Shown in pieces: positions 24,013-57,515 of a DNA stretch of 64,000 bases; the stretch's first letter is position 1, and each line of letters starts with the position of its first letter. The notes under the pieces are model-generated. The model was given only the letters and a program-made list of their open reading frames with translations. It was not told the DNA's origin and made no database searches. The position numbers and the translations under genes were made by a program. The DNA comes from Meghimatium bilineatum (Eukaryota > Mollusca > Gastropoda > Stylommatophora > Philomycidae): contig CM067312.1 in assembly GCA_034231615.1 (NCBI GenBank), positions 937,501 through 1,001,500 on the forward strand. The letters run 5' to 3'.

Positions 24013-24227
24013 CATGTTGAGGCAGATATTGAAAGTCGGGGTAGTTGAGATTAATTAATTAAATGTGGAATGTGTTGCGTGGCTAGGTCACACTTTTGTT
24101 TGGATAAGGACCTGGAGAAAAGATAACCTAATGTAATGTAACCCCCCCCCCTCCCCAATTCGTTTGAATGTCGCATAGTTGAAAATACTTTGGTGGTCCC
24201 ATTTCAGAAAATCATCTGTTTGTTACC

Positions 24228-24317
24228 AATATATGTTCTCTATTATTCTTAGATATTTACTATTAATGTTCACGGATATCAACAATAAAGACGTTAGAAC
24301 AATAGAGAACATATATT
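24228..24317. repeat. 17-bp perfect inverted repeat, 56-base loop
   Basis: Aatatatgttctctatt at 24228-24244 is the exact reverse complement of aatagagaacatatatt at 24301-24317. The right arm lies just upstream of an RTE relic. It may be the edge of a small inverted-repeat element. Confidence 0.6.
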
Positions 24318-29985: not shown

Positions 29986-30173
29986 GTGTCTCAGTGGCTG
30001 TCAGCTGTTTTACTTTAGTGGCCATCTCTCTTGAGCGATACTTCGCCATCTGTCACCCTCTCAAGTCCAGGAGCTGGCAGACTTTATCACATTCATACAA
30101 GGCAATAGCTCTGTGTTGGGTTTTCTCCTTAATCTTGATGATACCACTGGCAGTATACCACGATCTAATCAAG
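29986..30173 (+). CDS. cholecystokinin/sulfakinin-type receptor, exon for TM3-TM4 (partial gene)
   Basis: Internal exon of a class A GPCR. After a tctctag acceptor the frame reads GVSVAVSCFTLVAISLERY (end of TM3 with an ERY form of the DRY switch), FAICHPLKSRSWQTLSHSYK (second intracellular loop) and AIALCWVFSLILMIPLAVYH (TM4 with its conserved Trp). The loop pattern PL.SR.WQT.SH is characteristic of CCK receptors. It ends at HDLIK before AAG|GTCAGT. The exon begins with two bases of a split Gly codon and ends in phase 0, matching the next exon. The preceding exons (N-terminus, TM1, TM2 and the TM3 cysteine) were not found on this strand and probably precede the window. The product would be a plasma-membrane peptide receptor coupling to G proteins. 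Confidence 0.9.
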
Positions 30174-30387
30174 GTCAGTTCAGTATATCATTTATGTAGT
30201 TTACTCAAAAAGGAAGCTGCGATTGTGTCATTTTAAGTCATTCGCCTACCGACCAACAGTCCCGGAATAGTAAGGTACTAGCGCTCATGCTCTGGGAAGT
30301 GAGAATAATGGCGCCCTCTCACCTGAACTAGTAATGTCGTAGGCGCTAGTCGGCCGGTCTGTTGTCAACTAGTGATGACAGCTGAGT

Positions 30388-31666: not shown

Positions 31667-31796
31667 ACGGACGACATCAATTATTATTCTTCCTCGCTCT
31701 GCAGTCAGAGTCAGAGGCTGATTTTGATTTCAACAATTAAATGGTACATGCCCGAGATAGGGCAGTAAAGCTACTCGTTCATGTCATGCCATGACT

Positions 31797-32042
31797 ATCA
31801 CTGATATAAATGTATGTCATTTATGTCATCACACACGTCAAGTATCACTGATGAAAATGTATGCCATTTATGTCATCCCACACGTCTAGTATCACTGATG
31901 TGAATGCATGTCATTGATGTCATCTCACGTCTAGTATCACTGATGTGAATATATGTCATTTATGTCATCACACACGTCTAGTATCACTGATGTGAATGCC
32001 GTATATAATATGTATGCGTATGTCTGACTTCACTGATGTAAA
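31797..32042. repeat. 47-bp minisatellite, about 5 copies, ending near the splice acceptor
   Basis: Units contain tatcactgatgtgaatgtat and gtcatttatgtcatcacaca. The last degenerate unit ends about 35 bases before the exon at 32079. Confidence 0.88.
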
Positions 32043-32078: not shown

Positions 32079-32259
32079 ATTGGACCAAGTCGACATGCAT
32101 GTAAGGAGACCTGGCCGTCCATGGACGGTCTGAAGATCTATACTGTGGTACTAAACATGATGTTGCTGCTTCTGCCATTTGTCATCATGAGCTGGGCTTA
32201 CGGCTGCGTCTGCTATACATTGTGGGCTGGTATTCAGTTGGAGAGACAATCAGAGAAAG
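32079..32259 (+). CDS. cholecystokinin/sulfakinin-type receptor, exon for loop 2 and TM5
   Basis: Starts in phase 0 after the acceptor TTGAGACAG and reads IGPSRHACKETWPSMDGLK, with the extracellular-loop Cys that pairs with TM3. It continues VVLNMMLLLLPFVIMSWAYG (TM5 with its Pro) and CVCYTLWAGIQLERQSEK. AYG..SLELYQGIKFE in vertebrate CCK receptors corresponds to AYGCVCYTLWAGIQLE here. It ends with one base before the donor AAAG|GTGGGT. The next exon supplies two bases, giving Glu and an unbroken frame. The last 53 bases of the exon plus the donor are repeated downstream as a 60-bp array, so the true 3' end could be any of several identical donors. I chose the first because it gives the expected protein length. 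Confidence 0.9.
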
Positions 32260-32876
32260 GTGGGTGTGTCTGCTTTACATTGTGGGTTGGTATTCAGTTG
32301 GAGAAACAATCAGAGAAAGGTGGGTGTGTCTGCTATACATTGTGGGCTGGTATTCAGTTGGAGAGACAATCAGAGAAAGGTGGGTGTGTCTGCTTTACAT
32401 TGTGGGCTGGTATTCAGTTGGAGAAACAATCAGAGAAAGGTGGGTGTGTCTGCTATACATTGTGGGCTGGTATTCAGTTGGAGAGACAATCAGAGAAATG
32501 TGGGTGTGTCTGCTTTACATTGTGGGTTGGTATTCAGTTGGAGAGACAATCAGAGAAATGTGGGTGTGTCTGCTATACATTGTGGGCTGGTATTCAGTTG
32601 GAGAGACAATCAGAGAAAGGTGGGTGTGTCTGCTTTACATTGTGGGCTGGTATTCAGTTGGAGAAACAATCAGAGAAAGGTGGGTGTGTCTGCTATACAT
32701 TGTGGGCTGGTATTCAGTTGGAGAAACAATCAGAGAAAGGTGGGTGTGTCTGCTATACATTGTGGGCTGGTATTCAGTTGGAGAGACAATCAGAGAAATG
32801 TGGGTGTGTCTGCTTTACATTGTGGGTTGGTATTCAGTTGGAGAGACAATCAGAGAAAGGTGGGTGTTTCTGTTAT
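32207..32876 (+). repeat. 60-bp minisatellite, 11 units, made of the TM5 exon end and its splice donor
   Basis: Each unit contains tgctatacattgtgggctgg, tattcagttggagagacaat and cagagaaaggtgggtgtg. The first unit is the real exon end. Each unit is exactly 20 codons without a stop (CVC(Y/F)TLW(A/V)GIQLE(R/K)QSEKGG). Eight units keep AAAG|GTGGGT (junction base at 32259, 32319, 32379, 32439, 32619, 32679, 32739, 32859). Three have AAAT|GTGGGT (32499, 32559, 32799). Splicing from a G-type donor n would add 20 x (n-1) residues in frame. Splicing from a T-type donor would create TAA at the junction. Y- and F-type monomers alternate for most of the array, giving a 120-bp dimer. Confidence 0.95.
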
Positions 32877-32899
32877 ATAATGGGGGTTGTCATATAGCT

Positions 32900-33114
32900 G
32901 GATAGACTGTTAGATAAGGGATAATGATTCCAAGACATTAAAGACAGTTTAGGAAAAGAATGATGTGCATATAAGACAGTTAGAGACAGTCTGATAAGGG
33001 ACAATGGGTCTAAGACAGTTAGAGAAAGTCTTATAAAGAATGATGTATGTCTAAGACAGAGACAGTCAGATAAAGGATAGTGTGTGTCTAAGACAGAGAC
33101 AGTTAGATAAAGAC
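32900..33114. repeat. degenerate minisatellite, about 5 copies
   Basis: Units of about 40 bases share taagacagttagagacagtc and tgataa(g/a)gga(t/c)aatg. Confidence 0.75.
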
Positions 33115-33424
33115 AATTTTCTGCTATCCCTGAGGTGCACACGAGAGCAGAGCGTTACTCTCTGTATCAATTTTATACTCACATTTCACTCCCTGTGTAG
33201 CACAGTCCTCATAAAACAATGTCCTATCATGTCCAACAATTGCTTGCATATCTTTCTTCCTCCTATCGTATATCTGTATCTAACTCTTTCCTCCAGGTGT
33301 TTTGTGTCTTCCTCTTTCTCTTCTTCTCTGTATATTCCAGTCACTGTATATCTTACAATATTTTATATTTGTATTTTTAATGTATGTCATATCCATCCCT
33401 AGCATCGTTTCATTAATTCTCTCG

Positions 33425-34394: not shown

Positions 34395-34472
34395 TATGTC
34401 TTAAATGCAAGACATTCTTAAATGCAAGACATTCTTAAATTCAAGACATTCTTAAATTCAAGACATTCTATT
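34395..34472. repeat. 17-bp repeat, 4 copies, abutting the splice acceptor
   Basis: Unit cttaaatgcaagacatt, ending directly at the tctatttcatttcag tract before the last exon. The branch point probably falls in or beside it. Confidence 0.85.
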
Positions 34473-34481
34473 TCATTTCAG

Positions 34482-35113
34482 AAGCACAAACGAAATTAGC
34501 TTCAGCGGAATATGACAGCCAAAATGGGATATCTCTATACGTCAATACTAAAACAACGCCTACCGGTAGTAGTGATGATGTGGAATGGCAGACGTCTGGC
34601 TCAATATGCGGGCTAGCAAATACAACTTCCAACAACTGCAGTAAGTCGGTTGCCAGACCATTTCGTCGAATGGAGGCTCACAGAGCAATGAGACAATCAA
34701 ACACGACCAGATCTCGCGCTGCCAAGAAACGTGTCATCAAAATGTTATTTATGATTGTGGTGGAGTTCTTCGTATTCTGGTCTCCCATCTACACGGTCAG
34801 CACTTGGATGGTATTTGACGAAGCTAGTGCGCTTAAACACGTGACATCAATGACCAAGTCACTCATGCATCTTGTGTCCTACATCAGCGCCTGCTGTAAC
34901 CCCATCACCTATTGTTTTATGAACAAGAATTTCCGTCAAAGTTTTATCATGGCGTTCAGATGTATGAAGACTCGCTACGTGCAAGCACATAAATCTCAAA
35001 TGTCTTTTACTTCAGCCAGTACAATGTCTACTCGAACCCCAGCCAACCCGTCCACGGCCACCAGCTACGACAAAATTGTAGAGTCTGACGAGATCTCAGA
35101 GAATAGTTTCTGA
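34482..35113 (+). CDS. cholecystokinin/sulfakinin-type receptor, last exon (TM6, TM7, C-tail)
   Basis: After TTTCAG two bases complete a split codon, then the frame is open for 209 residues to TGA. It encodes the third intracellular loop, ending in the basic stretch RSRAAKKRVIK. TM6 follows (MLFMIVVEFFVFWSPIYTVS; FxxFWSP in place of FxxCWxP), then TM7 (SYISACCNPITYCF with the NPxxY switch NPITY) and helix 8 (MNKNFRQSF). AKKRVI.ML and NPI.YCFMNK.FR are strong CCK-receptor signatures. The Ser/Thr-rich tail (SFTSASTMSTRTPANPSTAT) is a likely phosphorylation region. The protein ends SDEISENSF. TM6 has Phe where CCK receptors usually have Cys; otherwise no damage is visible. The gene looks functional. 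Confidence 0.93.
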
Positions 35114-35162
35114 TCGTCAAGTTTAGAAGATCATGGTAATATTAGCTACAACATGTTTTAGT

Positions 35163-35430
35163 ACATACGTCAAGTGTCTGCGTCACGAGTACGACTCAGT
35201 CTTCAGTTAACACGCCAACAATAGCACCTACATACGTCAAGTGACTGCGTCACGAGTACGACTCAGTCTTCAGTTAACACGCCAACAATAGCACCTACAT
35301 ACGTCAAGTGACTGCGTCACGAGTACGACTCAGTCTTCAGTTAACACGCCAACAACAGCACCTACATACGTCAAGTGACTGCGTCACGAGTACGACTCAG
35401 TCTTCAGTTAACACGCCAACAACAGCACCT
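35163..35430. repeat. 67-bp minisatellite, 4 copies, 50 bases after the receptor stop codon
   Basis: Near-perfect copies contain acatacgtcaagtgactgcg, tcacgagtacgactcagtct and tcagttaacacgccaac. Each unit includes the small palindrome gtgactgcgtcac. Confidence 0.95.
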
Positions 35431-35439
35431 ACATTTTCT

Positions 35440-42544: not shown

Positions 42545-42912
42545 ATTTTAGATTTTAGATGTTGTAGGTGAGTATTGTGTTATACCTCGTATTTTAGATG
42601 TTGTAGGTGAGTATTATGTTATACCTCGTATTTTAGATGTTGTAGGTTAGTATTGTGTTATACCTCGTATTTTAGATGTTGTAGGTGAGTATTGTGTTAT
42701 ACCTCGTATTTTAGATGTTGTAGTAGAGTTTTCTGCTTGTACCTCGTGTTTTAGATATTGTAGTATAGTATTATGTTATACAACGTATTTTAGATGTTCT
42801 ACTATAGTATTATGCTATACCTGGCATTTTAGATGTTGTAGTAGAACATTGTGTTATACCTGGTATTTTAGATGTTGTAGTAGAACATTGTGTTATACCT
42901 AGTATTTTCCGG
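42545..42912. repeat. 39-bp minisatellite, about 9 copies
   Basis: Units contain cgtattttagatgttgtagg and tgagtattgtgttatacct. The 3' copies are diverged (gtagaacatt variant). Confidence 0.93.
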
Positions 42913-54792: not shown

Positions 54793-57515
54793 TTAGTTAT
54801 TCGTTGGATCATCATCATTGCACTCCGGACAAGTCCATAGGTGCTCAGATCTTTCCTTGAGTGAATCCGCAATTACACGTTGACTGACAGTCCCAGTACG
54901 TTGTTGATTGACCATCATTCTTTTTCGCCCACGAAAACTCTCCTTTCTAGCGACACCACATTTCAAACCAAGTTCCTTTACTCTAATCATAGAACAAGAG
55001 CCATGGTCACTTGTACAGTCATTTGTTCGTGCGTTTTCCCGTAGGGCATTCAAAATGTCTGCCCGGTCCATCGCTCCACCAACCGCCGTAGTAGCAGCGT
55101 GGGCGGCCAAACTATCTGCTCTTTCATTACCCCGGACTCCCGCGTGTCCCGGCACAAAAGTAAAAGTCACTGTACGCACACAGGAATTATTCATTGCATC
55201 CAGCCACTGTTCTCGAACGTACCCCGTCTGAACGTTCACAATCATGTTCATGGAGTCACTGAGGATACAGGCATGCTCGCAGACAGTCTGTGAGCAGACC
55301 CATTGCAAAGCTTTGGTCACCGCCAGAATCTCCATTGTCAAGCTGCTTGTCGTCTGAACGAATGCACCACTTTCCTCTCTGATAGTCTCCCCCAACCTTT
55401 GAGCCATGAAAGCCCAGGAACTCCTGAAGTGTCTCTCAACCGACCCATCTGTATATATAACTATATCACCTTCCCTGGAATTCTCACTGATCAGAGCGAG
55501 CACCTCCGACTCGACCACTGTCGGACACCATTCCCTGCACTCTCTATTGAGTGTTATTACTCCTTCGAAGGCTTTTGGATAATCCGAGGGTGCCAGACTC
55601 CATTCGGCACCAGGTAGTATATCCTCCAATCTGCAGACACTCTGTATAACGTCCTCTGCGCGCCCCATCCACGACTTTCCTCTCTTTAGTCGACTTCCTT
55701 TCATTTTGATAATTTCTGGGTGTAGAGGGTGCTCTTTATCAGCGGTGATTTTTAGGTAGTCCCGCGCCCTGCACATTTGTATTCTTTGCTCCGCAGTTGG
55801 GCAATCAAGTAGGTATCGCATAGCCCGAGCCGACGTATCTCTCGTGCACCCCAAAATAATTCACATTGCTTCCTTTTGGATTCTATCCAATCTTTCTGTT
55901 TGAGTTTGACTCAGTGTCAGAATTGCCAGTGCGTACTCTACTACCGCCACCACCAATCCCTGACACAGCAGAAATAGCAGTCTCCGTTCGCATTGAGCAG
56001 CAGCCATAACTTTCATCGCCGCAAGACCTTTATAAGCCATTACAATTATGTGGTCAACATGATCTTTGAAACTCAGACTTCTGTCCAACATGACCCCCAA
56101 GTACTTCATTGTGCAGGTTCTCTCGAGGACATCCCCTCTCAAAGTAACCGATGGCGTGGACGTGTTCACTATGTGATTGTTTAGGGAAAACCATGTTATC
56201 GATGCCTTTGATGGATTAACAAAAGCTCCAGAATTACTGCAACATTCTCCTATACGATCAAGCTCCCTCTGCAAATTTCTGGCAATTGTTTCTCTATCTC
56301 TGCCCTGCCTATATACCAATATGTCATCAGCATAAGACATGGTTCTCCCTGGTCCTGCAATCTGACAGCTTGTAATTTGAACTGTATACACATTGAATAG
56401 TACTGGGGACAGAGGTGACCCCTGTGGTAGTCCTGGATTTGTAACTGTTGGTGGTGAAGACCAACTCCCACACCTAAGAACAACCTGTCTCTGATAAAGT
56501 GCAGAGACAATCCACCTGACAACAAATGGACTTACTTGGAGTTGCAGCATTATGGTCATCCAGAAATCCAAAGGCGCTCTGTTATAAGCATCCTCCAGGT
56601 CTATTGCAGCAGCGCATGTCTCCATTCGTTTGTCAAAACCTTCGAAAACGTCCTGCGTGAACACGGCAGCATTGTGCCAAGTCTGCTTACCTGGATGATA
56701 ACCTCCCAATGTTGATGGTAGTCTATTATTCTTTTCTAGATGTAGGGACAATTTCCTCGCCACAATCTTTTCTAACAACTTGTCGATAATATTCTGCATG
56801 GTTATGAGTCTGAAACCCTGTATCTTAGCATGACTCTTGCCAGGCTTGGGTAGTGGGATCAAGTAACTATGCAACCAGTCCTCCTCTACTTTGCCGTTCG
56901 CTAGGCTCTTTTTGAACAACATTGCCAGCTCCTTAAGGTCTTCGTCTGACCTGCCTTTGAGATCATCATACATAATGCCGTCAGGTCCTGGCGCAGAGTT
57001 TCTTGATCTTTTCAGTACTGCTGTAATATCTTCAAGAGTAATTACATTATCGCTTTCCAAAGCTTGCTCCTTGCACATGTCTGTGACTGTTTTCGTGATT
57101 TTATTGTAATTCACTAAATTGCTCTGACCGATTTGTGCCTTGTAATGAGCTAGCAGTGCTGCACCCTTATTCTCATCTGTCTTCTGCCATACTAAGTCTG
57201 TGCTTTGAAAATTGGGGATTGTTATACGCTTCCTTGGGTCGTTCATTGATTTATGCAGGCGCCAGAACAGCTTTAATGACTTTTCTTTTGCAATCTCATG
57301 ACAAAAGTCTTCCCATTTTTTTTCCCTTCGCAGCCTTAGCAATATCTTTAAATTCTTGACCCCTGTCGTCTTTGGCCTGTTTTAATTGCACAAGATCTGG
57401 CTGTGTTGTCACTTTTTTCCTTGCTTTCTGCCACTCTGCAACTGCGCTACGTTTACTCTTCCGTGCACTTTGGACTTCATCATTCCACCAGAGGGGGGGG
57501 GGGTTGATTCCACAT
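54793..57515 (-). mobile_element. I/Nimbus-like non-LTR retrotransposon, 5'-truncated, nearly intact ORF2
   Basis: Read downward from 57515. The linker starts WWNDEVQSARKSKR; an 8-base A run (57316-57323 on the + strand as T) causes a frameshift before KKWEDFCHEIAKEK. The reverse transcriptase runs 57342-55861: SAPGPDGIMYDDL, LIPLPKPGK, AIDLEDAYNRAPL (motif A), GLPQGSPLSPVLFNVYT (motif B), YADDILVY (motif C, catalytic Asp pair intact) and KYLGVMLDRSLSF. One in-frame TGA at 55861-55863 separates it from the next open stretch, 55854-54793. RNase H follows with all catalytic motifs (IYTDGS, TMEILAV, LSDSMNM, PGHAGVRGNERADSLA), then the C-terminal SEHLWTCPECND and the stop. The endonuclease and ORF1 are missing. 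It lies inside a 17-bp array and is the youngest mobile element here. Confidence 0.92.

Follow-up and report, generated by a model that had tools for sequence, protein, structure and literature searches.

Repeat-borne splice donors, and splicing events that insert residues into the third intracellular loop of a receptor, are each already known. Turri, Cuin and Porter are said to have reported in 1995 (in Nucleic Acids Res 23:1854) that the minisatellite of IFI6, also named IFI-6-16 or G1P3, contains multiple splice donor sites. As outlined in the relevant part of PMC4526556, the human IFI6 minisatellite has two downstream repeat units in use and gives rise to three mRNA species. The array described here, located in a receptor gene of the gastropod Meghimatium bilineatum, resembles IFI6 in that minisatellite units supply splice donors. 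It differs in that its 60-bp unit keeps the splice phase and consists largely of coding exon, so that 20 codons would be added per step. Further, downstream donor use is described for IFI6, whereas the receptor array is known from sequence alone.

Third-loop insertions are found in human CCK2R (CCKBR), where excerpts of the literature describe a long form to which intron 4 contributes five residues (PMC3094373) and an intron 4-retaining form (CCK2i4sv) with 69 extra third-loop residues that is constitutively active (PMC7067705, PMC3094373). The receptor studied here is of the same family and extra residues would likewise enter the third intracellular loop; however, the CCK2R residues are derived from intron 4 itself, whereas the receptor array would supply repeats of the exon's own end. 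In a mollusc, the Lymnaea T-type calcium channel LCav3 is outlined as having alternative tandem donor sites for exon 8b (201 residues; PMC3376122), a membrane protein in which donor choice alters the length of a cytoplasmic linker. In contrast to the receptor array, the excerpted text of that source mentions no repeat array for the donors. Short-spaced tandem donors of the GYNGYN type, summarized as in-frame sites 3-9 nt apart (PMC1779574, PMC2279118), likewise equip an exon end with several in-frame donors, but are separated by a few bases and not by a repeated exon segment as in the receptor array. The combination of repeat-borne donors, a third-loop insertion and a coding exon edge as part of the unit was not found in the literature searched, most of which was covered below full-text level. 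The new feature of this locus is that the end of a coding exon serves as one of the array's own copies.

In the sea slug Aplysia, CCK-type peptides are reported to suppress feeding (PMC12535377). Should the downstream donors be in use, a repeat of variable length would adjust the loop through which a feeding-related receptor contacts G proteins, and repeat number would be tied to receptor isoforms in a simple way that is open to testing. Even with those donors unused, the locus would represent a clear example of a minisatellite whose unit has taken in the edge of a coding exon. The array is also a natural test of spliceosome choice between eight donors with one shared sequence and closely similar surroundings. 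For repeats of this kind, short-read aligners are reported to be able to produce spurious junctions (EASTR, PMC10632439).

Receptor gene and its exon junctions

Three receptor exons, together covering TM3 to TM7, were located in the window, meaning the whole 64,000-nt stretch of DNA that was analysed.

29986-30173, + strand: receptor exon A (TM3 to TM4), found by tblastn with 12 gastropod receptors and by Pfam 7tm_1 above its cut-off
32079-32259, + strand: receptor exon B (ECL2, TM5 and the start of the third intracellular loop), ending in a phase-1 donor, found by tblastn and alignment
34482-35113, + strand: receptor exon C (third intracellular loop, TM6, TM7, C-terminus and stop), found by tblastn, Pfam and protein match

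Exon limits were set by AG and GT, with the donor of exon A (AAG/GTCAGT, the stroke marking the splice point) at 30174 and the acceptor AG of exon C at 34480-34481. Exon B alone reaches 23.5 bits against Pfam 7tm_1, under the 30.5-bit cut-off. The top solved match of the exon C frame is a CCK receptor type A (E 9.2e-24), the next receptor family being vasopressin V1a (E 4.5e-12). A search with the joined protein returned 461 protein matches, of which the best 120 were considered, with gastropods on top and gastropod CCK receptors making up the informatively named proteins among the top matches. Among the matches listed, Candidula unifasciata is closest over the full query (69% identity), while the highest identity is 72%, over 47% of the query (P0065). 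Proteins of the species itself thus seem not to be among these matches, and a lack of isoforms there carries no weight. The matches point to a heterobranch snail or slug as the probable source. Judged by these matches, the gene is a gastropod cholecystokinin/sulfakinin-type receptor, a class A GPCR. The 12 tblastn queries gave no convincing match to a TM1-TM2 exon in the window, the best candidates being pieces of P0009 at 24220-24316 (E 0.60) that contain a stop. The TM1-TM2 exon may be located upstream of the window, and the stretch ahead of exon A (window positions 1-29985) likely reflects either a gap or an intron longer than 30 kb.

The junction between exon B and exon C was examined in an alignment of 19 of the 120 listed relatives, from which P0024 and P0065 were dropped because they do not cover it. 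None of the 17 spanning relatives carries an inserted residue at this junction, these relatives being mostly predicted models from which minor isoforms could be absent. Thus, only the first donor (32259/32260) gives the ancestral protein. Several relatives, P0006, P0009 and P0012 among them, have longer loops beginning about 5-9 residues past the junction, in which no resemblance to the 60-bp unit was seen by eye in the alignment. The exon end itself is conserved in relatives, so the array copies derive from the exon, and the converse scenario of an intronic repeat invading the exon was rejected.

The exon-end array and its history

At its 3' end, exon B runs directly into the array, its last 52-58 bases constituting copy 0.

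32208-32867, + strand: minisatellite of 11 copies of a 60-bp unit (exon end plus donor), from Tandem Repeats Finder and register layout
32260-32261, + strand: first donor GT (AAAG/GTGGGT), which alone gives the conserved receptor (17 of 17 spanning relatives lack a junction insert)
32320-32861, + strand: ten downstream donor-like GTs at 60-base spacing, from register layout and U1 pairing
32320, 32380, 32440, 32620, 32680, 32740 and 32860, + strand: the seven downstream AAAG donors
32500, 32560 and 32800, + strand: the three downstream AAAT donors
32868-33120, + strand: decayed older copies on the intron side, from Tandem Repeats Finder, register layout and shuffles

Tandem Repeats Finder delimits the array at 32208-32877 with a period of 60, 11.2 copies, 95% matches and no indels, and in register it consists of 11 head-to-tail copies with 0-3 mismatches each against the consensus. 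A near-identical, head-to-tail unit of tens of bases identifies it as a minisatellite and, as in IFI6, the units carry a donor in register with the exon end. The first-pass annotation, which had described 11 tandem copies of a 60-bp unit made of exon end and intron start, was right in this and within a base or two in its positions; its exon identity (TM5 and the start of the third loop), splice phase and 20-codon arithmetic likewise agree with sequence and alignment. In the Tandem Repeats Finder register, the unit comprises 52 exon and 8 intron bases. A cut of 58 plus 2 fits as well, the exon reading GGC TGC where the array reads GGG TGT, with four of six bases alike and Gly-Cys encoded by both (the chance of at least four matching bases in six is about 0.04 by our own arithmetic, assuming equal base frequencies). 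The duplicated piece may have been 58 exon bases followed by GT.

Each copy has a GT at 32260 + 60k, the last at 32860. The annotated count of eight AAAG donors in eleven copies was borne out by the register layout, which places AAAG/GTGGGT at k = 0, 1, 2, 3, 6, 7, 8 and 10 and AAAT/GTGGGT in the remaining three copies (k = 4, 5 and 9). All 11 donors, being offset by multiples of 60, share one splice phase, and with exon B ending one base into a codon every one of them is in phase with exon C. Exon C begins AA GCA CAA; an AAAG donor thus contributes G to give Glu (G+AA), while an AAAT donor contributes T to give TAA. The AAAT copies had been proposed to act as an off-switch. Splicing there would indeed create a stop, but this is a mere consequence of joining T to AA, implies no regulation and concerns the weaker donors.

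Donor strength was estimated as the ViennaRNA duplex energy with the 5' end of U1, a measure that ignores enhancers and position. AAAG donors pair at -11.8 kcal/mol, compared with -6.6 for AAAT donors and -6.5 for the TM4 exon donor (exon A). The AAAG donors thus pair with U1 far better than the donor of the neighbouring exon, making downstream donor use plausible. Only 11 of 4428 + strand GTs in the window reach -11.8 kcal/mol or lower, eight of them in the receptor array and three in an array of 39-bp period at 42552-42908, where no exon was identified in a look that did not specifically search for genes. At the -6.5 level, 16 of the 77 arrays hold at least three sites on one strand, so an array with donor-like sites is in itself nothing unusual in the window.

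Copies 0, 2 and 6 are identical across the 60-bp register, and copies 2-5 are similar to copies 6-10, which have one unit extra. These patterns suggest multi-unit slippage or exchange in which the exon copy took part. Four codons vary inside the array, all nonsynonymously (Tyr or Phe, Ala or Val, Arg or Lys, Gly or Cys). The sole synonymous differences, GGC for GGG and TGC for TGT, set the exon copy apart from all ten other copies, so that exchange, if any, ends short of those bases. At two of the four variable codons the exon carries Ala and Arg, and Candidula has Val and Lys like some array copies. Among eight relatives that we take to be heterobranch, Lys is found in seven, Arg in one and Ala in none, while Ala is present in two relatives that are further removed. 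Of 19 residues, Candidula shares 17 with copies 1 and 8 and 16 with the exon; over 17 relatives, the mean number of shared residues is 12.76 (exon), 13.12 (copy 8) and 12.24 (copy 1). On this thin evidence, variants probably passed between the exon and the intronic copies, or else a change arose in the exon and spread from there.

Beyond the array, copy 11 (32868-32927) retains 38/60 identity, contains an in-frame TAG and has lost its donor, and is followed by repeats of 37- and 80-bp period related to the unit. The unit-similarity score of 32931-33120 was reached by 0 of 500 shuffles and that of 32868-32930 by 1 of 500, with unremarkable values in control stretches (33121-33420, 402/500; 31680-31990, 488/500). 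The exon end would accordingly appear to have seeded repeats more than once.

Readings of the donor array

We consider it probable that the array is a young and likely length-variable minisatellite that captured an exon edge together with its donor, the first donor being mainly used while the other strong ones may leak. Tandem duplication of the last 52-58 exon bases and the intron start would have created this minisatellite, one of dozens in the window. The spliceosome would mainly pick the first donor, yielding the conserved receptor, and the seven other strong AAAG donors would be tolerated because they are in phase and stop-free, probably leaking small amounts of isoforms with 20n additional residues. 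Any use of the three AAAT donors would lead to an immediate stop. By joining in exchange within the array, the exon end would expose coding residues at the end of TM5 to replacement from intronic copies. Copy number probably differs between individuals, as judged from the structure of the array in a single sequence.

No special cause is needed for the capture itself. Tandem arrays, 77 after merging, occupy 44.2% of the window; in the introns on either side of exon B their share is 53.5% and 52.7%. Of the five splice boundaries, one falls within an array, and 5749 of 6400 circular shifts place at least one there, so exon-edge capture is unremarkable as a coincidence. Exon bases in arrays number 52 of 1001; with every third base sampled, 288 of 6400 shifts gave that number or a lower one, a result to be expected if arrays that enter exons are mostly removed. 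Against the reading of a captured, mainly first-donor array stands the equal strength of eight donors, since exclusive use of the first would call for some rule of position, of which the sequence gives no sign; its exchange component hangs on one or two residues.

A functional ladder, as put forward in the first-pass annotation, would have any of the eight AAAG donors in use, adding 0 to 200 residues at the junction of TM5 and the third loop with altered G-protein coupling. The donors are strong and in phase, the unit is open, and third-loop insertion by splicing has a described precedent in human CCK2R (as excerpted from PMC7067705 and PMC3094373). However, nothing shows use of any donor but the first: the junction is free of inserts in all 17 spanning relatives, the longer loops elsewhere are unlike the unit, and each block would repeat the Cys-rich, hydrophobic end of TM5, presumably unlikely loop filler. 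The within-array codon variation, nonsynonymous throughout, also argues against the ladder, four variable codons being too few for a formal test of constraint. The 60-bp unit is stop-free, as had been noted, but in all three forward frames; openness thus comes free and was rejected as coding evidence. Among 131 Tandem Repeats Finder rows of period at least 10 in the window, the length of the consensus unit is divisible by three in 41, and in 34 of these at least one of the six frames is open. A protein search with the array frame gave eight candidates, none at E of 0.001 or below, in a search of low sensitivity that also missed the relatives sharing exon B. A Pfam DUF7949 hit on the array frame (E 3.6e-07, 30.7 bits, cut-off 27), in which no single stretch passes alone, was judged a repeat artefact. 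Taken together, we hold the ladder to be unlikely; a regulated form of it is no more than possible.

A further scenario, speculative and to be doubted to a similar degree, is that the array is a hypermutable minisatellite in which slippage and exchange set the number of in-frame donors, creating a heritable, individual-specific third-loop ladder and rewriting residues at the end of TM5. If so, recurrent loss-of-function alleles would arise from the AAAT variant spreading to the first copy.

It is rather improbable that the array is inert, with the first donor alone in use and no effect on the mRNA. The conserved junction and the abundance of arrays throughout the window are in line with such silence, as are the array at 42552-42908, with its three equally strong donor-like sites and no exon identified in a non-dedicated look, and the 16 of 77 arrays with at least three one-strand sites as strong as the TM4 exon donor. 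Total silence of seven AAAG donors that have the same sequence as the first, in nearly the same context, would nevertheless be surprising.

Donor redundancy, in which a row of strong U1 sites aids exon recognition in a repeat-filled intron and the array is kept for splicing efficiency, agrees with eight of the eleven strongest + strand GTs (-11.8 kcal/mol or lower) being located in the receptor array, but is very improbable given that older copies have decayed and that the copy at 32868-32927 is without a donor. Misassembly of the copy number or of the whole array is hardly credible, as the copies vary in an ordered way, the array is flanked by older copies that have diverged and the window contains no N.

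Neighbouring repeats

The intron between exons B and C carries a second array close to its other end, where 4.2 copies of a 17-bp unit (34399-34469) stop 12 bases ahead of the exon C acceptor. Both ends of this intron are thus made of repeats. Downstream of the gene, 4.1 copies of a 67-bp unit (99%) are found at 35162-35434, starting 49 bases past the receptor stop and probably lying within the 3' untranslated region. With 44.2% of its length in such arrays, the window has a very high minisatellite density. In two land-snail genomes, repeats are described, in the parts of the reports dealing with them, as mainly transposable elements and unclassified sequences (PMC8496239, PMC8022989). The window also contains a non-LTR-like retroelement on the - strand at 54796-57381, recognizable from the reverse transcriptase (PF00078) and RNase H (PF00075) domains of two adjoining long frames.
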